Assembly: GCA_002335145.1 (NCBI GenBank)
Contig: DDBV01000022.1
Location: forward strand, 1-18,908
DNA from: Patescibacteria group bacterium UBA2023
Lineage (GTDB): Bacteria; Patescibacteriota; Gracilibacteria; BD1-5; UBA2023
Length of the DNA stretch: 18,908 nucleotides
Direction of reading: 5' to 3'
The translations under genes were made by a program, and so were the position numbers. Of the stretch, positions 5,320 through 18,908 are shown piece after piece. Every line of letters begins with the position of its first letter. The stretch's first letter is position 1. The notes beneath the pieces are model-generated. The model made no database searches, was not told where the DNA came from, and worked only from the letters and a program-made list of their open reading frames with translations.

Positions 5320-6279
5320 TTAGTTGATTCGCACGAGTGTTCGGAGTTTTGCGCTTCTGGCTCGAGGATTTTCCGTGATTTCCGCATCCGTCGGTACGAC
5401 CGGTTTGCGTGTAGTCTTTCGGTACGGAGCCTCTTTCGATGTGCGCCCGGTGAGGTTATCGATCTCATCGGCCGTGACCTCCGCGAAGAGGTGTTTTACG
5501 ATTCGATCTTCCACCGAGTGGAAGGAGATGACCGAGATCCGTCCGCCGACTGGAAGCCGTCCGAGAATCTCCGGAATGCTCGTTCGCATGGAGTCGAATT
5601 CGCCATTTACGGCGATTCGTACCGCCTGGAATACCCGGAGGATACTCTTGCGGTCGCGCGATCGGCGCGATACGGAGGCGGCGAGATCTGCGGTAGTCTC
5701 GAACGGGGTATTTGCATGTTCGGCCAGTAGGTGCTTGGCCATCCCGTAGGCATGCGGTTCTTCGCCGTACTCGCGGAGAATACTCGTGAACCGTTCGATG
5801 TCAACGGTCGAGAGCCATTCTTTTGCCGTTGGCAAGCGTCCGGTGCGGTCGTAGCGCATGTCGAGTGGTCCGGGAAATCGCCACGTAAAGCCACGATCGC
5901 CATCGTCTGCGTGCCGACTGGAAATACCGAGGTCGTAGAGCGCGTGAGTCGGGATCACCCCGAGTTTCGTGCAAATCGATTGTACATGAGCATAGCTGTC
6001 GTGCACGAGGTCGACCCTCGGACGATTCGCTGGAGAGAGGGAGTCGAGCACCGCATCGATGCGATTTCTCGCTTCTTCCAGATTCGCCGCATCCCACTCG
6101 ATCCCGATGAATCGGTCATCACAGCGGAGCGAACGAATGATGCCGATGGCATGCCCGCCGAGCCCGAGCGTACAGTCTACCACGATTCGTGGCTGCGGCG
6201 TGCCATCCTGATCGAGCGATAGGTGTTCGAGTACTTCACGATACAGTACTGGAACGTGACCATCGATTTGCTCGATCAT
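5320..6279 (-). CDS. rsmH: 16S rRNA (cytosine-1402-N4)-methyltransferase
   Basis: RsmH (MraW) methylates N4 of C1402 in 16S rRNA using S-adenosylmethionine. The 319-residue product carries the family signatures in order: HVPVLYREVLEHL near the start, the SAM-binding DCTLGLGGHA, YDLGISSRHAD, RGFTWRFPGPLDMRYD, FQAVRIAVNGEFDSM, GGRISVISFHSVEDRIVKHLF and the C-terminal NPRARSAKLRTLVRIN. It begins a short unit with the FtsL-like gene. No mraZ is seen upstream, unlike the classical division cluster. Its promoter shares a block with that of the CYTH gene. Start ATG at 6277-6279; no in-frame TGA. Confidence 0.97.
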   Translation of the reverse strand: MIEQIDGHVPVLYREVLEHLSLDQDGTPQPRIVVDCTLGLGGHAIGIIRSLRCDDRFIGIEWDAANLEEARNRIDAVLDSLSPANRPRVDLVHDSYAHVQSICTKLGVIPTHALYDLGISSRHADDGDRGFTWRFPGPLDMRYDRTGRLPTAKEWLSTVDIERFTSILREYGEEPHAYGMAKHLLAEHANTPFETTADLAASVSRRSRDRKSILRVFQAVRIAVNGEFDSMRTSIPEILGRLPVGGRISVISFHSVEDRIVKHLFAEVTADEIDNLTGRTSKEAPYRKTTRKPVVPTDAEITENPRARSAKLRTLVRIN

Positions 6280-6330
6280 GATTTGTTCGAAATTTGTTGA
6301 ATTTTTGTCGGAATTTCTCCCGTTGAAACG

Positions 6331-6358
6331 AGAGTATTGGTTTTCGTTTTCGCGTCAA
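6331..6358 (-). promoter_or_regulatory. promoter of rsmH-ftsL
   Basis: On the minus strand, TTGACG (6353-6358), a 16-base spacer and TACTCT (6331-6336). The -10 match is weak, but the -35 box and spacer are near-copies of those upstream of the CYTH gene, which supports the assignment. The leader would be about 45 bases. Confidence 0.6.
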
Positions 6359-6619
6359 ACAAATATTTCAAACGAGGCGAGAAAAAACATTGCGATCGAT
6401 TTTTTTCTATTGTCTGATTAAGAATTTATAAACAATGAAGGGGGATTTTTGGAGAAATCTCGTGTAAAAGATTGGGGTCTCTCTGGTATTTTTGTGTAAA
6501 AATACGAAAATTTTGTCAAAAAGTATTAGAAATCTCGTTGAGAAATTTCCGGAGATCCACACTGAATATCCTATACAAAGGAAATTCTCCGATCCCCATC
6601 TATGATCATCTCTAATAAC
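6359..6619. other. AT-rich intergenic stretch
   Basis: No gene supported. The stretch is clearly richer in A and T than the rest of the window and full of short A/T runs. A minus-strand frame at 6407-6655 lacks an ATG start and gives a low-complexity Phe-rich product, so I do not annotate it. I see no clear RNA gene. Confidence 0.4.
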
Positions 6620-8630: not shown

Positions 8631-11600
8631 ATGTCCGATTTTCAGCCCAAGCGTATTCCCGTGGTGCGATCCAGACGGCAGGCTCTTCCCAAGATTCCCG
8701 GTGCTTCCGCAGGGCGGATCATGGGGATACTCTTCCTCTTTGTCACACTCGGACTCGCTCTCGGACTCGGGGGAATTTATGCGGTTTTTCTCTCGGATCT
8801 CCCATCCGTCTCCACGCTCGAAGACGATATTCTTCCGGAGAGCTCGATCATCTACGACCGCGAATGAAACGAGCTCTATAATCTCTACTCCGAGGAGAAA
8901 CGTCGCTACGCGAAATACTCCGCCATCGACCAGGATATGGTTCATGCCATTGTCGCTGCCGAGGATAAAACCTTTTTCGAGAACGCGGGAATCGATTTTC
9001 GGGGGCTTGTCCGCTCGGTTCTATCCTATGCGACTGGTCGTACGGAGCGCATTTCCGGGACTTCTACCATCACTCAGCAGCTCATTCGCAATGTCTTTCT
9101 TACGAACGAGCGTTCGCTCGATCGTAAGGTCAAGGAGATGTACCTGTCCTTTCTTATTACGAGCAAATATTCCAAGGAGAAGATCCTCGAGATCTACCTC
9201 AACAAGATTAGCTTCGGAAGCAATGCTTATGGCGTAGAGCAGGCTTCGCGCACGTTTTTCTGAAAATCCGTTGCCGATATATCGCCGCTCGAAGCATCCG
9301 TTCTCGCCTCCATTCCCAAGGGGCCGACCTACTATTCCCCGTATACCCAGCGTCTCAGGCTCGTTGGAGGACTCTCTGTGGTTTCCCAGACTGATACGAG
9401 CAACGAGGTTCGTATCGATACGCCCGAGCAGTTCGAGCGGTTCAAGCCGCTTGTGGATGCGTTCCGATCCTTCGTGACGAATTTGCGGTTCGAGTCGGTC
9501 AGCTCCGACTCGCTCAAGGTTTGCGGTATAGATGAGCGGCTCTTGGCCGAAGATTACGGTGTCCGCGATGGATGTGCCGGACTCGATTATCCCGATCTTC
9601 TCTCATTTCTCGGGAATATCCGTATTCCGTACGATGCTGTCGTAAGTGAGGCAGCTGACTCCGAATTGTCGGACTTTGCCCTGCACTACACGACTGGTCG
9701 CAAGGACTTCGTACTCGGACGCATGTTCCAGGATGGGTATATCGACGCGTCCGCCTACGCCGCATCGGTCGTTGACGCTGTGACGTACCAATTCGTGCCG
9801 TACCGGGAAGATATTAAAAATCCTCATTTTGTCTTCTACGTGCAGGAGTATTTGGAGCGTGAATATGGGACCGACTTTCTCGATCAGGGGGGACTCAAGA
9901 TCTATACCACTCTCGATCCGAAGCTCCAGAACAAGGCTCAGGAACTCGTGACCGCCCAAGCCACGAAGAATGCTACAGCCTACGCCGCGAAGGATGCCGG
10001 CCTCGTGGCAATTGATAATGCGAGCGGTCAAATACTAGCCATGATCTGAGGAACTGATTATTTCGGCGAGAGTGAGGGATCGCGCGTCAACGTTATGACG
10101 GCCCGACGTCAGCCGGGATCGTCATTCAAGCCGCTCGTCTTCGCGCTCGCGATGTCGAAGTATCCCATCGGACCGGATACGCCGATCTACGATGTACGGA
10201 CCGAATTCGGGAATTGGGAGCCGAAGAACTTCGATGGATCGTTTCTCGGACGAATGTCCATTCGCCGTTCGCTCGGATATTCTCGCAATATTCCCGCGAT
10301 CAAGATGCTCGATATCGCCGGGGGTGAGGCCGCCATGGTTCCATTTGCTAATTCGCTCGGCATCGCATCGCTCAAAACTGGGATGGGGTACGGCCTCCCA
10401 ATGGCCATAGGAACGGCCGAACTCGAACCGCTCGAACTCGCCCAGGCATACAGCGTTCTCGCGAGTGGCGGAAAGAAGCGCGATGCTACACCGATTCTTC
10501 GGATTGTGGACAGCCGTGGAAACACGCTCGATCCGGGCATTGCGAAGCCGACACAGGTATTGTCGGAGGCGGTTGCATACCTCCTCTCCGATATCCTTTC
10601 CAATCCGAACAATCGCCCGACAGAATACTGGAACAACGCCCTCACAATCCCGGGCCACACGGTCGCCGCCAAAACAGGAACATCAAATGCTGATGTGAGC
10701 GTAGGGAATACCAAAAAAATCCTGCCGCGCGACCTGTGGACGGCCGGATACTCGCAGGATATCACGACGATCGTCTGGACGGGGAATCTCGATGGAACCC
10801 CTGCCAATGCCAAGGCCGATGGTCTCTCGTCATCCGCGCCGATCTGGAAGGAATTTATGAAATTCGCACTTGCGGGCAAGACCGATCGTCCGTTTGACCC
10901 ACCCGAGTCCGTCTATACAGCGGTCATTTCCAATGTCACAGGGAAGCTCGCGAGCTCTGCGACGCCCGATTCTTTTCGCGTCCGTTCGCGGTTCGCGGTG
11001 GAGCCTACCGAATTCGACAGCTCAAGCCAGGAGATCGAGATTGATTCGCTTTGCAATGGGAAGGTGACTGATGCGACCCCTCCCGAATCCGTGACGCGCG
11101 GAATTCTCATGGATGTGACGCCCGTGATAGAGGGGATGCGCCCCGCCTGGAAGCGAGCGATTGAGAATCTCGCACGATCGAGTCTCTCGGAGGCCGAGAT
11201 CTCGCAGGTAGGCCGGGCGATCATCGTTGATTACGATCCGTCCGAAGTCTGCCCCCGACCCAAGGCAAGCCTCTCGAATATCTCTGTCTCCTCCACGTTC
11301 GGACAAAATGCCGTGCAGGCACTTGGATCAAACCATGTGTGGATCGACTATGTTGCCGATAATCCGATCGTCCGACTCGAAATTCGCCGCGGAGATACGC
11401 TCGTGCGTTCCATTCCCATAGAAGGCGAACAACGCTCTGGATCATTCGTAGACAATGCCATGTTTTTCGGACCAGAGTTCTCTGGACCACAGACGATGCG
11501 AGTCATCGCTGTCGACCGCTACGGATATACAAAAGAGGAGTCATCGACCGTCTCGTTCGAGTCTGATAGATCCGCTCCTGAGATCGTCCTCCTGAATCCT

Positions 11601-11867
11601 GTCGATGGAGACCGATCGATTTCCGTCTACGAGGACCAGTTCTTCAATCTCCGTTTCCGCGTGGATGATGCGAGCACCGTGACAGCAGTGAATCTCTACC
11701 TCAATGACCAGCTCTTTCGAATTCTCGGTGATGGTCGCGACTTCAGTCTCCCGATCAACGATGTCAACGACTTCGATATCGGTATCCATACGCTCGGGAT
11801 TGAGGCGATCGATGCTGCACGAAATCGCGGGTACGAGGAGGTTCGACTCGAAGTCCTTGCGCGGTAG
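8631..11867 (+). CDS. bifunctional class A penicillin-binding protein (code 25, three TGA)
   Basis: Polymerises lipid II into glycan strands and cross-links them, outside the membrane. One 1078-residue frame contains TGA at codons 79, 211 and 473, each at a conserved Gly position. Order: basic N-terminus, membrane helix (about 30-54), GT51 transglycosylase with EDKTFF (catalytic Glu111), SGTSTITQQLIRN, RKVKEMYLS and ILEIYLNKISFG. An insert of roughly 100 residues (about 250-355) contains a Cys pair (VCGIDERL...DGCAG). The transpeptidase follows with SSFK (nucleophile Ser497, Lys500), SRN (551-553) and KTG (681-683). After about 885 comes a beta-rich C-terminal extension that looks like one or two Ig-like domains. 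The standard code would split this gene into four pieces. It is co-transcribed with the LCP gene, 27 bases upstream. Confidence 0.97.
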
Positions 11868-12645: not shown

Positions 12646-13470
12646 ATGCCCCTCAAACGTCGCATCTCCGTCTCGCCCCGTCTTTCCATTCTTGGCGGAC
12701 TGTTCGTGAGTTTTGTCGAGTTTTTCCGATTCCGTCCGATCCGCTGGATGAGTCTGTTTTTCGATTACGTCCGAGATTTCTCTACCTACCGCCGAACGAA
12801 TACCCACGCGCTGCTCTCAAACGATCGGATTGTCTGGTATCCATGCCTCGGCGATGCAGAGGTGTCGAACCCCGTAGAGCCCATTTACTTCACGCAGTCC
12901 TGCTGGTGCGCGCGCAAGGTGTTCGATGCTGCCCCCGAGCGACACGTTGATGTCGGATCGAGCGTTGTCATGCTCGGGATCATCGCTCAGGGTGTGCCAA
13001 CCGTCTTCGTGGATATTCGCGACCTCCCTATGGTCGTGCCGGGCCTGACGTATGTAGAAGGATCGATCCTCTCTCTGCCATTCGAGGATGCTTCCATCGA
13101 GAGTCTCTCATCGATCTGCGTCATCGAGCATATCGGACTCGGACGCTACGGTGATCCGATCGATTCGGACGGGAGCGAGAAAGCTCTTGCCGAGCTCGCC
13201 CGTGTCCTCTCCGATGACGGAGACCTCTATATTACCGTGCCGGTCGATGATACCGACCGTATCTACTTTAACGCGCATCGTGCCTTCACTCCTACGCGAC
13301 TCGCCGACCTGTTTACCGAGAACAGGCTCCAGTCCGTAGAATCACTCTATCTCTACGATACCGATCTTGGTGCCATGTGGCTTCCGGAGCGCGGATTTGG
13401 AACGGGATTCTACCATCTGCGAAAAACGAGCATCAATGACACAGGAAACGATGGAGAACTCGAAGGATAA
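12646..13470 (+). CDS. DUF268 family protein, methyltransferase-like
   Basis: A 274-residue protein of the DUF268 family, which has a class I S-adenosylmethionine methyltransferase-like fold and often lies in polysaccharide clusters. The match is strong: HVDVGSSVVMLG (SAM-binding loop), VFVDIRDL, then SLSSICVIEHIGLGRYGDP, ELARVLSDDGDLYITVPV and FNAHRAFTP. The N-terminal 50 residues are hydrophobic and basic and may associate with the membrane. The ATG at 12646 is chosen; an upstream start would overlap dedA. It lies 35 bases after dedA, and its last 35 bases overlap the fucosyltransferase gene, so the two may be translationally coupled. The acceptor is unknown; a sugar is plausible. No in-frame TGA. 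Confidence 0.85.
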   Translation: MPLKRRISVSPRLSILGGLFVSFVEFFRFRPIRWMSLFFDYVRDFSTYRRTNTHALLSNDRIVWYPCLGDAEVSNPVEPIYFTQSCWCARKVFDAAPERHVDVGSSVVMLGIIAQGVPTVFVDIRDLPMVVPGLTYVEGSILSLPFEDASIESLSSICVIEHIGLGRYGDPIDSDGSEKALAELARVLSDDGDLYITVPVDDTDRIYFNAHRAFTPTRLADLFTENRLQSVESLYLYDTDLGAMWLPERGFGTGFYHLRKTSINDTGNDGELEG

Positions 13471-14425
13471 TATTTCTGCTGCAGATCATCCGACCAAAAC
13501 CGTCTCGATTCTTTACCATAACAACGGACGTCTCGGAAATCAGCTCTGGCTCTATGCGAGCGTTCTTGCATACGCATTTCATGAGGGGTGCTCCGTGGAG
13601 AATCCGAGCTTTTTCGAGTATGCCCGGTACTTCCGCATGGAGTGCGTGCAGTGATGGCGGAAGCGAGCATTCTTCGATACGTATAACTGGCATCGGGATC
13701 GGCGGATCGGTAGGGTCTTCTACTTCATCTATGTTTGGTTCGTGCGCGTGTCCCGTTGGGGGAATATTCTCCGTGTGCGCCATACTCCAGAAAACTCCGT
13801 CCCTTTTTACCTGCCGCCAACCCAGCGACTCAATGCGCTCTACCCACGCCACGAGCATCGTCTGCGCGAGTGGGATAGGGAAACACTCTTCTTCGATGGC
13901 TGGCTCTTCAGGAATCCCGAGGGAATCCTCGGATACCGTGCTCGTATCCGTGAGTACCTCCGTCCGAACGAATCCATCGAGCGGTCCGTGACAGGATTCA
14001 TGACAGGTGTTCGCGAGATCTACCAGCATGTTGTCGGTGTGCATATCCGTCAGGGTGATTACCGTCACCACGATGGAGGAAAATACTATATTGCCCCTCG
14101 CGACATCGCGAGGATCTTGACCGACTATCTCCACCGGACCGAGCGAAAATACGTTGGGTTCGTGCTGTGTTCGGACGAATCGCTCGATGCCGCGGACTTC
14201 GCGGGACTTCCGGTGGTGTTCGCTCGTGGCAGCGAAGTATCCGACCTCTTCACACTCGCGGCATGTGACCTCATCATAGGATCAAATAGCACCTACGGTG
14301 CGTTCGCCTCGTACTATGGAGACGTGCCCTTTTTGGTGTTCTCCCGGGGGCCGACGGACTGGAGTGGAATCGATGCCAAGTGCGGGTATGAGGAGAATAA
14401 AAATGCAACCATGGTATGTTACTAA
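13436..14425 (+). CDS. alpha-1,2-fucosyltransferase-like glycosyltransferase, GT11 (code 25, one TGA)
   Basis: Likely transfers fucose (or a related deoxysugar) from a GDP-sugar onto a surface glycan. The N-terminal NGRLGNQLWLYASVLAYA corresponds to the GT11 motif GGLGNQMFQYA, and VVGVHIRQGDYRHHDGGKYY to the HIRRGDY motif that binds GDP-fucose. Later motifs also fit (VLCSDE, DLFTLAACDLIIGSNSTYGAFASYYG). The frame is broken under the standard code by TGA at 13652-13654 (codon 73, CVQ-G-WRK); under code 25 it is continuous at 329 residues. Two starts are possible, ATG 13436 or ATG 13451; the second has AGGAAA just upstream. Both overlap the end of the DUF268 gene. Sugar specificity is inferred from family resemblance only. 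Confidence 0.85.
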
Positions 14426-14501: not shown

Positions 14502-14509
14502 TCGTGCCT

Positions 14510-15145
14510 ATGCATTCTGCTGCCGCATCCGCACAAGACCCTCGTAGACACTGGGACATCGCGAACGACCCCTTTCCCTTCTCGGCCGTGGGAGACGGCC
14601 CCGCACCGGCCGATATGAATCGGGAGCGTGTTGCTGTCGCGCTCGAACGCGTTATACATCTTCGGAATACACCATCCGATCGCCTTGCTCCACTGATGCC
14701 GGATATTCACGAGCATGTTGTTGAATTGCGCCTAAATGCGGGCCAGGCGATCCATCGGCTTCAGGGGCTCGACCAACTCGTCCGGTCTCTTGCCGTCACA
14801 ATGCTTTGTGATCTCGCTTCGTTTCAGGATCTTTCAGAGGCTTCGCGTCAGAGTGTCGATCGGCGAATCCGCGAATATGCGAGGCTCATTTCCCGCTTGC
14901 TTCGGGCAATCGACCTCATCTTGAGTAATCGTCTCGACGAATCTCGCGCCACCCATGTCATTGACTCAACGCGGTATTATATCCTGGCGTTTTTTGCGAG
15001 AGCCTCGGCATTTAATGGAGACGATCCAGAAGCATGGACGAATACATGACATCGAGCTTCTTCGAGTAAGCCTGGAGCGAGTGGTTTTCTCGAGCATGTA
15101 TCGCGCCTTTTTGGCCGTATCGGATGAAGGAGTCGGGATCGCTAA
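14510..15145 (+). CDS. hypothetical helical protein, 211 aa (code 25)
   Basis: Not recognised. The N-terminal 40 residues are Ala/Pro-rich and probably disordered; the rest looks alpha-helical, with regular Leu, Arg and Glu spacing (NRERVAVALERVIHLR, RRIREYARLISRLLRAIDLIL). No signal peptide or clear membrane helix. Under the standard code it would stop at TGA 15047-15049 (codon 180); under code 25 it reads on to TAA at 15143-15145, passing a second TGA (codon 206) and overlapping the convergent GT4 gene by 134 bases. The start ATG 14510 lies nine bases after a terminator-like hairpin. A weak promoter (TTGATT at 14442, TATCCT at 14463, 15-base spacer) overlaps that hairpin. Confidence 0.55.
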
Positions 15146-16166
15146 GGAGCTCCATGATGCTCTGTGCGAGGTTTTCCGCATCGCCTTCGCGAAATATCTT
15201 GCCGTGCTCACCGATGACTTCTGGAATTGCTCCCGAGTCAGATCCAATAACTGGCACGCCCGAGGCCATACTTTCTACGATCACGCGACCGAATTGCTCT
15301 TTCCAGAAGTTTGTTGATCGTGAGGGGATAACGAGAAAGTCGATCTTTGTGAAAAAATCCTCGGCGAGACGATCGGCTGATACGCGCCCGATAAATTCCA
15401 CGTCCACTCATTGGTTCTTTGCGATGTCCGCGAGAGATTCTTTGCGCGGTCCTTCGCCTGCAGCGAGGATAGATATGCGGTCGCGGTCGAGCCGATGAAC
15501 GGCGTGAATGAGGTCCTCAAGTCATTTCTCATCGACCATCCGACCAATGAATCCGATCCGTACGTTGCCCGTGGGCGGAAGATGCTCGCGGAAAGGAAAG
15601 AGTGCGAGATCGCACGCGAATCCCGAGCCGAATACTTGCTTCGGTTCGCCGAATTTCCGAGCTTCGTCCACGGCTTCGCGATTCACTGCGAACACCGCAT
15701 CTATTCGTGCGAGATTCCATCGTCCTACCCAGGAGAACGGAAAACGGTACCAATCGAGATTCTCGAAGGAGAAATTCACGATTCGTGAGGGAATTCGAAG
15801 AAATCGCAGTGTTGCGATAGCTTGGGTGAGAGTGGGGGAGAATACCTCGGAACAGGCATGCACGACATCTGGCCGAATCTCCCGCAGCACCCGCGCGAGC
15901 GCGATCGGTCGGTAGAGTGTGCGCGCGTATCGGTGTGTTGGGTGCAGGAGAGGGAGTGTGACAATGCGGACATTCGGAGCTGCGGCTTGCCGCTCAGCGG
16001 CAGACACGGTTTTTTCGGCGATGCCGAGATTCGGGAATCCGACTCGTTCGGGCGTGACGACCGTGATATTGTAGCGGTCGGAGAGGAGTTCGAATGTCTT
16101 GAGGAGAAAATCCGTATCCACGGCGAGTGCAGGGTAGAGGAAGAGAATCTTCGGTTTAGCGGTCAT
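15012..16166 (-). CDS. GT4 family glycosyltransferase (code 25, two TGA)
   Basis: A GT-B fold retaining glycosyltransferase of 384 residues, probably adding a sugar to a lipid-linked surface glycan in the cytoplasm. The N-terminal domain starts PKILFLYPALAVDTDFLLKTFELL and contains PDVVHACSE; the C-terminal domain starts with VRIGFIGRMVDEKG. The donor-binding ExxxxxxxE motif is in KEQFGRVIVESMASGVPVIGSDSG. TGA codons at 215 (VDEK-G-LEDLI) and 253 (KNQ-G-VDVEF) fall where GT4 enzymes commonly have Gly; under the standard code the gene breaks into three parts. Its ATG overlaps the stop of the upstream GT4 gene by 11 bases, so the two are one operon and likely coupled. The 3' end overlaps the convergent 211-aa gene. 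Confidence 0.93.
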
Positions 16167-17322
16167 GGTGCGTAAGAGAGGATTCTAGTATATCGAGCGT
16201 CTGAGCGAGGGAGAAGTGGGTCCGGGCTACGTCGCGAGCATGTCGTCGGTAGGAGTCCGGATTTCCTGCGATTATCGTGATCGCTCGGGCGTAGTCCAAG
16301 GGGTCAAAAGAATCAACAACGATCCCGGCATCGCCAAGTACGTCCTTTGGGACACGACATCCAACAGAGAGGATACAGGGGAGTCCCGAAGCGAGCGATT
16401 CCGCCACCACGAGCGGTCGGCCTCATTCATCGAGCGATGGCGAGATGAATACATCCGCTGCGGCGAGTGTCTCGAATTTATCTCTCCCTGTGAGTGTGCC
16501 GAGAAACCGCACGGAGTCTTCGAGTCAGAGAGTGCGCGCGAGCGATTGTGCCGACTCTCGCGCGCCATCATCTGGTCCGACAATGAGTAGAATCGAGTCC
16601 GGATGTGTTTCGTGGAATCGTGTAAATGCCCGAATCGCGATATCGGGATGCTTGAGTGGATGGAGTCGCCCCAGAAACATGCACACGAACGTGCTCGTTG
16701 AGATTCCGAGATTCGTCCGGGCGGCAGGTCGGTCGATGATGGGGATCGCGTCCATGTCGATTCCGTTGCCGAGCGTCACGGTCCTTGCACGGGACTCCAC
16801 CGAGAGAATATCATCATGCTCCCCATCCGATATGGCATATACGGCGAATGCGTCCCGGAGGTACGGGCGGATCTTTTCGAGGAGCCACTGTTTTATGTGT
16901 GAATGTCTGAGAGTGACGCGAGCATGACTCATGGTGCCATGTGGCATGATGGCATAGGGAATACCTGATTTATTCGCATGGTGGAGCGCACGGAACGTGA
17001 GCCAGGTGTAGATGTCGTGGACGATCACTCGATCAAATTCACTGATATTCTCACGGGTCCAACGGTCGAATCCGATGGGGGAGTAGATATTGGAGCGGTT
17101 CGCGAGGAAATTCGAGATATTCGGGAATCGAATCACCCGTACCCCGTTGATCGTGTCTTCCCGGGTCGGGTTGCGCGAGTCGCGGTTGTGAGCATCGGTC
17201 GTGATGACGGTCACATCGTGGCCGCGCTGAGCGAGCCCCGAGGCATGATCCTCGGTCACACGCACGATCCCACCATAGGCATAGGCGGGGGCGTACCAGG
17301 GAGTGACAAGGAGGATACGCAT
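16156..17322 (-). CDS. GT4 family glycosyltransferase (code 25, two TGA)
   Basis: A second GT-B glycosyltransferase, 388 residues. The N-terminal domain has MRILLVTPWYAPAYAYGGIVRVTEDHASGLAQRGHDVTVIT, with the Gly-rich acceptor-side loop, and later PYAIMPHGTMSH. The C-terminal domain has VTLGNGIDMD, FVCMFLGRLHPLKHPDIAIRAF and the donor motif DEGGRPLVVAESLASGLPC. TGA codons at 266 (ARTL-G-LEDSV) and 300 (LDE-G-GRPLV) restore the frame; the second gives the EGG loop found in GT4 enzymes, strong support for Gly. It is the first gene of a two-gene operon behind its own promoter. The sugar is unknown. Together with the fucosyltransferase it suggests a branched surface polysaccharide or O-glycan pathway, although no flippase or polymerase is in the window. 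Confidence 0.93.
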
Positions 17323-17433: not shown

Positions 17434-17949
17434 TTAGTGAGACATGGAAGGCATGGACGAAGCATCCACATCCATTGGCACATATCCGAGCACGTCCGGA
17501 GAGAGCATTCCGAAAATCATGGCGATATGGGCGACCACGAGAAAGACTCCGACCGCCATCGCATGGTACTTGAGGTGGTTTTCTTCTTCTTTCTCGGATT
17601 TTGATCTTTTGAGATCGAGCCAAGCTATGGCAACGAGGGGAAGTACTCCTGCCAAGTAAAATCCAACGGCAATGATGTCAGCAGCTCATCGCCACCCACC
17701 TGTGGACGTGAGAGGTATAACCGCCGCGAACATGAGATGGATAAATACTCCGATGAAGTAGATTCCACCAATAATTCCAGCAGTCCGAGAAAGGATGCGA
17801 ATCCATGCTGGGCACGAAGCGCGCATGAAAAGGATAGCGAGCTCCGTGATGGCAACGGTCTCGGCCAATACCACAGGAATGACCATGAACACTATGAGGT
17901 TCCATGGTTGATTGGAGGCAAGAAGCTCCATGTAGTGAGTCATTTGCAT
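17434..17949 (-). CDS. four-helix membrane protein, DUF6803-like (code 25, one TGA)
   Basis: A 171-residue inner-membrane protein with four hydrophobic segments at about 17-40, 54-80, 88-111 and 129-149. TGA at codon 88 (GGWR-G-AADII) splits it under the standard code. The N-terminus MTHYMELLASNQPWN and the VILAE/AITELAILF and TGGWRGAADIIAVGFYL stretches resemble a small conserved membrane family that I recall as DUF6803; this naming is from memory and tentative. Glu30, Glu36, His71 and His141 lie inside or at the edge of helices, as in proteins that handle metal, haem or protons. The C-terminus is Met/Ser/His-rich (SSMPSMSH). It follows the secreted-protein gene by 52 bases and probably shares its promoter. 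Function unknown. Confidence 0.8.
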
Positions 17950-18558: not shown

Positions 18559-18595
18559 AAAAAGGCAAAAAGTCAATACCGGAATTTTACCGGTA
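18559..18595 (-). terminator. weak terminator at the end of the recombinase gene
   Basis: TACCGG (18577-18582) and CCGGTA (18590-18595) form a six-base stem; the recombinase stop codon sits in the loop. On the minus strand two T-runs of five and six follow, interrupted by other bases. Confidence 0.4.
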
Positions 18596-18908
18596 GAGAG
18601 AGGCGTTATTTAGAGAATCACGGACATTGTCCAAACAGAAATTGAGGTAGATCCTCGTAGTCTGGAGATTTGAATGACCGAGAAGACTCGCGATGTTGTA
18701 GAGGTTGACGTTCTTCGAGGCGAGCTCGGTAGCGAACGTATGCCGGAACATATGGCAAGTAATGGGAAAATCCAATTTCTCTTTCAAACGGTTAATGATC
18801 CCGTACACCTCGCGGTGTTGGAGGGGATTTCCGAAAAAGGTCGGAAAGAACGAGTCCGATTTGAAATACTGCTTGTCCCGAAGGGTTGCATACGTTTTCA
18901 GGATCGGA
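18587..18908 (-). CDS. tyrosine recombinase / integrase, 3' end only
   Basis: C-terminal 106 residues of a phage-type integrase; the gene continues past the right edge. The catalytic signature is clear: HMFRHTFATELA holds the HxxR box, LLGHSNLQTTRIYLNF holds the Gly-His and the Tyr nucleophile. The first catalytic Arg lies outside the window. These enzymes cut and rejoin DNA at att sites, very often in tRNA genes, and the gene end lies 39 bases from the tRNA fragment, as expected for an integrase acting on its own attachment site. No TGA codon occurs in the visible part. XerC/XerD-like enzymes share the motif, but the tRNA context favours an integrase. Confidence 0.88.
   Translation of the reverse strand, partial: PILKTYATLRDKQYFKSDSFFPTFFGNPLQHREVYGIINRLKEKLDFPITCHMFRHTFATELASKNVNLYNIASLLGHSNLQTTRIYLNFCLDNVRDSLNNASLYR

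Follow-up and report, generated by a model that had tools for sequence, protein, structure and literature searches.

Genes of the window and the residues facing TGA

Five genes of the window, by which we mean the whole 18,908-nucleotide stretch of DNA that was analysed, carry between them nine in-frame TGA codons: three in a class A penicillin-binding protein (PBP), two in each of two GT4 glycosyltransferases (GT4a and GT4b), one in a fucosyltransferase-like enzyme (FucT) and one in a DUF6803 membrane protein. None of these five frames contains an internal TAA or TAG, and each of them ends on TAA or TAG, as the first-pass annotation of this DNA had said of the stops in use. Translation with table 11 breaks all five; the earlier estimate that at least seven genes would be wrong under the standard code comes down to these five clearly broken ones.

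Ten further genes or pieces of genes are free of TGA in the forms examined, these being atpD, atpC, dcd, CYTH, an FtsL-like ORF, rsmH, LytR-CpsA-Psr, DedA/VTT, a methyltransferase and an integrase piece. A longer 5' start of rsmH (5320-6390) would add one TGA; it is not counted among the five genes, and the Pfam match of the shorter form already begins at residue 8. Nor is the ORF at 14504-15145 counted, which has two TGA codons, matches no Pfam family and is absent from the gene calls. Upstream of atpD another ATP synthase gene might be expected, yet there is no convincing gene at 1-941 of the window, where none was called and five ORFs gave no Pfam match. At the other end, a tyrosine recombinase gene (PF00589, E = 2.1e-17) on the reverse strand runs past the end of the window, which includes its C-terminal part at 18587-18907.

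The host is a small, uncultured relative of Gracilibacteria, with an assembly of 1.10 Mb, and belongs to an order in which TGA as glycine is the rule. Its earlier placement in the CPR agrees with the named relatives of the PBP: in a list that may omit records of the host's own genome, 12 of the 27 bear the title 'Candidatus Gracilibacteria', and one of these is the best match (55% identity); three carry the titles Altimarinus, Patescibacteria or uncultured bacterium, and another 12 have names from other phyla.

The PBP (8631..11867, forward strand; transglycosylase and transpeptidase, PF00912, E = 5.7e-53, and PF00905, E = 2.2e-22) is 1078 residues long under code 25, and the columns of its three TGA codons were read over the 27 loci of named relatives. 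At codon 473 (10047..10049) the 26 loci have 23 GGN and three TGA codons and no other, so that all 26 are Gly or TGA. Codon 79 (8865..8867) faces GGN at 14 of 26 covered loci, TGA at four and something else at eight (three Leu, two Asp, one Pro and two gaps), and codon 211 (9261..9263) faces Asn as often as GGN (11 each of 27 loci, the others being two TGA, one Ala, one Asp and one Lys). The motifs that had been quoted around the TGA codons are right; the claim that those of the PBP lie on conserved glycines is borne out at codon 473 and fails at codon 211.

The same claim for the GT4 enzymes, both on the reverse strand, is likewise divided. In GT4a (15012..16166; PF13692, E = 2.5e-29), codon 215 (15522-15524) faces Gly in 113 of 117 homologues and codon 253 (15408-15410) in 59 of the 117, the alignment being made from 120 listed of 2170 found. 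In GT4b (16156..17322; PF00534, E = 2e-24), for which 120 of 918 were listed, codon 266 (16525-16527) faces Gly in 16, other residues in 23 and a gap in 79 of 118 homologues. Codon 300 (16423-16425) faces a gap in all 118, and is a one-residue insertion beside a conserved Glu-Gly. It should be noted that BLAST penalises the X that stands for TGA when it places gaps opposite TGA in GT4b, that MAFFT also gave gaps there, and that both GT4 alignments leave out truncated or off-length proteins. The DUF6803 protein (17434..17949, reverse strand; PF20617, E = 3.1e-66), described earlier as a four-helix membrane protein with its TGA on a conserved Gly, fully deserves that description of its codon 88 (17686-17688), which faces Gly in 120/120 homologues listed out of 2732 found. 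FucT (13367..14425, forward strand; glycosyltransferase family 11, PF01531, E = 8.1e-06) has its TGA at codon 96 (13652-13654), which was covered by a reading-frame check. Where the columns are conserved, as in DUF6803, GT4a codon 215 and PBP codon 473, it is thus Gly that stands at TGA, and the remaining TGA codons that were compared with homologues lie in variable or gapped columns.

A wider test set 253 genes called in a sample of the host's own sequence against 229 fetched loci; the 36 with hits gave 16 TGA columns in 10 genes, with 124 cells. These cells are 70% Gly if the 21 of 124 that are themselves TGA are counted as Gly, and GGN in 66 of 103 without them. As controls, the host's GGC codons face Gly in 72% and its TGG codons face Trp in 76%. 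Gly has a majority in 8 of the 16 columns, most of the other eight having only one to three homologues. It is worth adding that the single TGA among the first residues of the host's rpoB has Gly or TGA opposite it in each of 32 relatives.

Annotation with the standard code truncates the genes that bear TGA, and cut copies of two are already in the protein collection. It contains forms of the window's GT4b and GT4a that stop at the first TGA (P0121, 265 residues, and P0242, 214 residues), together with proteins of relatives that stop just short of GT4b codon 300 and GT4a codon 215 (P0122, 299 residues, and P0243, 214 residues).

Decoding of UGA in the host and its relatives

A tRNA with a UCA anticodon, which the first-pass annotation had expected of this genome, is present as one copy among the 41 tRNA genes of the host's assembly (Rfam tRNA), at G000:C16:18760-18838. 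ARAGORN, which labels it 'SeC', gives it 79 nt, made up of 76 nt and an encoded CCA; it has an ordinary shape, its acceptor stem being of 7 bp and its variable loop short. It carries G1:C72, C2:G71, G3:C70 and U73, the elements used as the criterion of glycine identity in PMC8629427. A separate tRNA-Trp(CCA) is also present in the genome. There is one release factor with a PCRF domain, RF1, and its sequence has VPETES (of the PxT type) and GGQ, which we take to be features of RF1. No second such protein and no RF2 (prfB) was found in the 88.9% complete assembly, in line with the absence of prfB that had been foreseen; the best prfB match (E = 1.4e-82) is far below RF2 strength.

With nine in-frame TGA codons, Gly in the conserved columns, this tRNA, an RF1 and no RF2 found, the proposal that TGA is glycine here stands, and the host almost certainly uses NCBI genetic code 25, with UGA read as glycine by a tRNA-Gly(UCA), RF2 gone, RF1 serving the stops, and UGA rare and avoided. 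The dedicated tRNA would decode UGA as glycine, presumably once the ordinary glycyl-tRNA synthetase has charged it by way of G1:C72, C2:G71, G3:C70 and U73 of its acceptor stem. RF2 would have been lost, leaving RF1 to terminate at UAA and UAG, and in this GC-rich lineage UGA would be a rare and avoided codon.

The relatives show the same pattern. A PCRF match was found in 37 of 40 genomes drawn from the family and order (the host's own included), one in each, that of G003 being in two pieces; these matches have 0 to 10 internal TGA codons and no TAA or TAG. Among the rpoB matches listed for the order, too, the only internal stops are TGA. A search of 77 genomes of the order for its tRNA(UCA) gave full-length matches in 64 and partial matches in two others, and all 30 copies that were fetched have the loop CTTCAAC and no GG in the D-arm. 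We note that the D-loop of these copies (L034:161-239, L099-L128) is a conserved one of 10 nt without the G18G19 pair in all 30 copies read, and that the copies drawn with ARAGORN have a 6-bp anticodon stem. Across the class, prfB is over the cut-off in 160 of 288 genomes, and within the window's order a match as strong as this occurs in G260 and nowhere else. It lies at G260:C153:10080-11129 and has no internal TGA; the assembly, of 2.7 Mb, is split into about 500 contigs, and the match is perhaps on a foreign one. Because of the tRNA(UCA), the missing RF2 and the pattern in the relatives, chance or error is very unlikely to be behind the in-frame TGA codons.

Organisms with code 4, in which UGA means tryptophan, also have a tRNA with a UCA anticodon and have lost RF2, and the host is like them in that UGA is a sense codon, with a UCA tRNA and no RF2 found; it is unlike them in the amino acid, which is Gly and not Trp. 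Tryptophan is, beside glycine, the one meaning that a reassigned UGA is known to have in bacteria, occurring in mycoplasmas and some insect endosymbionts (PMC8629427), and a UCA anticodon could serve it too. For this host, however, tryptophan is scarcely credible and is refuted by the alignments. Not one TGG codon stands opposite the host's own TGA in the 16 columns (124 cells) of the wider test, and codons 86-88 of DUF6803, TGG-CGA-TGA, face W in 120/120, R in 119/120 and G in 120/120 listed homologues, so that TGG is Trp and TGA, two codons on, is Gly. The tRNA(UCA) itself has the acceptor stem of a glycine tRNA, and U73, and exists alongside the separate tRNA-Trp(CCA). Trp or gaps opposite TGA had been named beforehand as what would speak against glycine; no TGG was seen, but gaps do occur at GT4b codons 266 and 300.

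A standard-code genome in which TGA is selenocysteine, readthrough, pseudogene breaks or sequencing errors has the ARAGORN label 'SeC' in its favour and can practically be dismissed, since TGA occurs in 138 of the 253 called genes, the well-conserved columns are Gly and not Cys, no RF2 was found and the relatives agree. The host's tRNA(UCA), having 79 nt, an acceptor stem of 7 bp and a variable loop that is short, does not resemble a tRNA-Sec, and selenocysteine insertion was rejected on this ordinary shape and on the Gly columns. Reading of CGA and CGG as Trp, as in Absconditabacteria, was also rejected: both codons face Arg in conserved columns of DUF6803 and GT4b.

That code 25 is established for this group, as the first-pass annotation stated, is correct: it is published for Gracilibacteria and Absconditabacteria, and its presence in the host is already known for its group and is not news. 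UGA as glycine, a missing prfB and the UCA tRNA are all in print (PMC8629427, PMC4032931, PMC6851277, PMC13092985, PMC10746230). In Gracilibacteria/BD1-5, UGA is glycine, prfB was not detected and prfA is present (Hanke et al., 2014, PMC4032931; PMC6851277), and for a BD1-5 population there is proteomic confirmation of glycine at UGA (PMC4032931, PMC6851277). The host, as read from its sequence, is like them in UGA as glycine, in RF1 being kept and in no RF2 being found. The Absconditabacteria (SR1) combine UGA as glycine with CGA/CGG as Trp (PMC8629427); the host shares the former, but its CGG and CGA face Arg and there is no CCG tRNA among its 41. It differs in composition from the Gracilibacteria genomes of PMC4032931 and PMC6851277 (33.2% and 28.87% GC), its sample having 53% GC, although a range of 0.21-0.53 has already been given for Gracilibacteria and Absconditabacteria (PMC8629427). 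Code 25 hosts have also been described as having 'high usage of TGA as a glycine codon' (PMC10746230), unlike the present one, in which TGA is 5.0% of glycine codons.

Scarcity of TGA as a glycine codon

What is less expected is this sparing use of TGA in a GC-rich member of the group, and its near-absence from genes presumed to be highly expressed. TGA-poor members, avoidance in highly expressed genes and the two types of tRNA appear in none of the titles and opening parts of abstracts among the matches listed in a literature search that covered few subscription journals. Codon usage was counted in 318.9 kb of the host's own sequence, consisting of the window and 15 further stretches; the window and this 319-kb sample are 53% GC. 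The 253 genes called in it have 91,185 codons, and their terminators are fixed by construction and are not independent evidence, the gene caller taking TAA and TAG as stops. TGA makes up 331 of the 6,620 glycine codons, and the ratio TGA/GGA is 0.116, against about 0.53 on the rough composition expectation (1-GC3)/GC3, which is 4.6-fold below.

In 24 of the host's genes presumed to be highly expressed, 1 of 516 glycines is TGA, compared with 330 of 6,104 elsewhere (Fisher p = 6e-11). High expression is here assumed from gene identity; the set consists of 20 genes of the ribosomal operon with secY, together with rpoB, rpoC, atpD and atpC. Of the ribosomal genes, uL2 alone was matched to a family, and the others were identified by eye and from their place in the operon relative to it. 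GGC is low in the same genes (26 of 515 GGN codons, compared with 1,124 of 5,774 elsewhere; p = 5e-20). The share of C among codons ending in C or T is up in them for Thr, Ser, Pro, Leu, Val and Arg, and down for Ala.

Across the order, the share of TGA among the glycine codons of rpoB ranges from 0 to 81% in 66 of the 69 genomes with a match (all but G025, G219 and G295; some of the genes are partial); the host's own value, 0/89, omits the first residues, where its one TGA lies. The Spearman correlation of this share with gene GC is -0.88, and it is this that favours the view that scarcity of TGA is a mere by-product of high GC, without selection on the codon. We consider that view quite unlikely. 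It does not account for the low TGA/GGA ratio of the host, nor for the difference between the presumed highly expressed genes and the rest; and in rpoB, where 28 of the 66 genomes are within 3-fold of the composition expectation, 22 are at least 10-fold below it, some of them with low GC (for example G035, with a GC3 of 0.145). Composition accounts for much, and not all, of the scarcity; what is left over is most readily understood as avoidance, or as failure of the codon ever to spread. Since TGA appears to be avoided in the presumed highly expressed genes, this suggests that UGA may be read less well than GGA. With rpoB shares from 0 to 81%, the order offers a graded set of lineages in which to study why a stop codon, once captured, spreads in some and stays rare in others, and whether such a codon is poorly decoded. 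Near the TGA-poor rpoBC genes there is an ORF with nine TGA codons and a serine recombinase or resolvase-like start, as judged by eye (L165:17800-19551, reverse strand).

As regards GGC, no tRNA-Gly(GCC) is present among the host's 41 tRNAs. Of 77 genomes of the order, 12 were seen to have one (ten of f1, two of f3 and none of f2), a count from which incomplete assemblies could hide further copies. It was sought with a pattern that has an N{12,18} spacing and demands GGTTC in the T-arm, together with a BLAST-type search; the pattern hits are those among the matches listed, and the anticodons of further hits were then read. Other similarity matches with the anticodon read are UCC, the exceptions being a single tRNA each for Asp and Pro, and in six of the 77 genomes the BLAST-type search gave no match whatever. 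In G006, G007, G026 and G028 the GCC gene is directly downstream of the tRNA(UCA). Loss of tRNA-Gly(GCC) was rejected as the full cause of low GGC: the link is partial, GGC being scarce also in the rpoB of G019 and G001, both of which possess the tRNA.

The f13 clade and the number of origins

A second clade of the class, f13, has no RF2-strength matches, while most, though not all, of the remaining class genomes have one. The order's tRNA(UCA), used as a query, had no match in 14 f13 genomes and 12 others of the class. Two f13 genomes (G103 and G078; L235, L237, L251, L254, L275) do have a UCA tRNA, of 74 nt without CCA, with UUCAG (G37) and an ordinary D-loop of the GUUGG type (TTGG), whereas that of the window's order has CUUCAAC (A37) as its anticodon loop and lacks the GG pair in its D-loop.

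These differing builds would fit either two origins or a single one followed by strong divergence. That UGA as glycine arose twice, once in the window's order and once in f13, with the GC-rich lineage keeping it as a rare codon outside its most expressed genes, is in our judgement unlikely. f13 is perhaps Absconditabacteria; if so, one origin would be favoured, because these are the sister clade of Gracilibacteria (PMC8629427). The window's tRNA(UCA) and those of f13 are 0.64-0.67 identical, and the nearest ordinary tRNA is at 0.71 to the window's and at 0.73-0.74 to those of f13. This nearest ordinary tRNA is not always one for glycine, being tRNA-His in G078.
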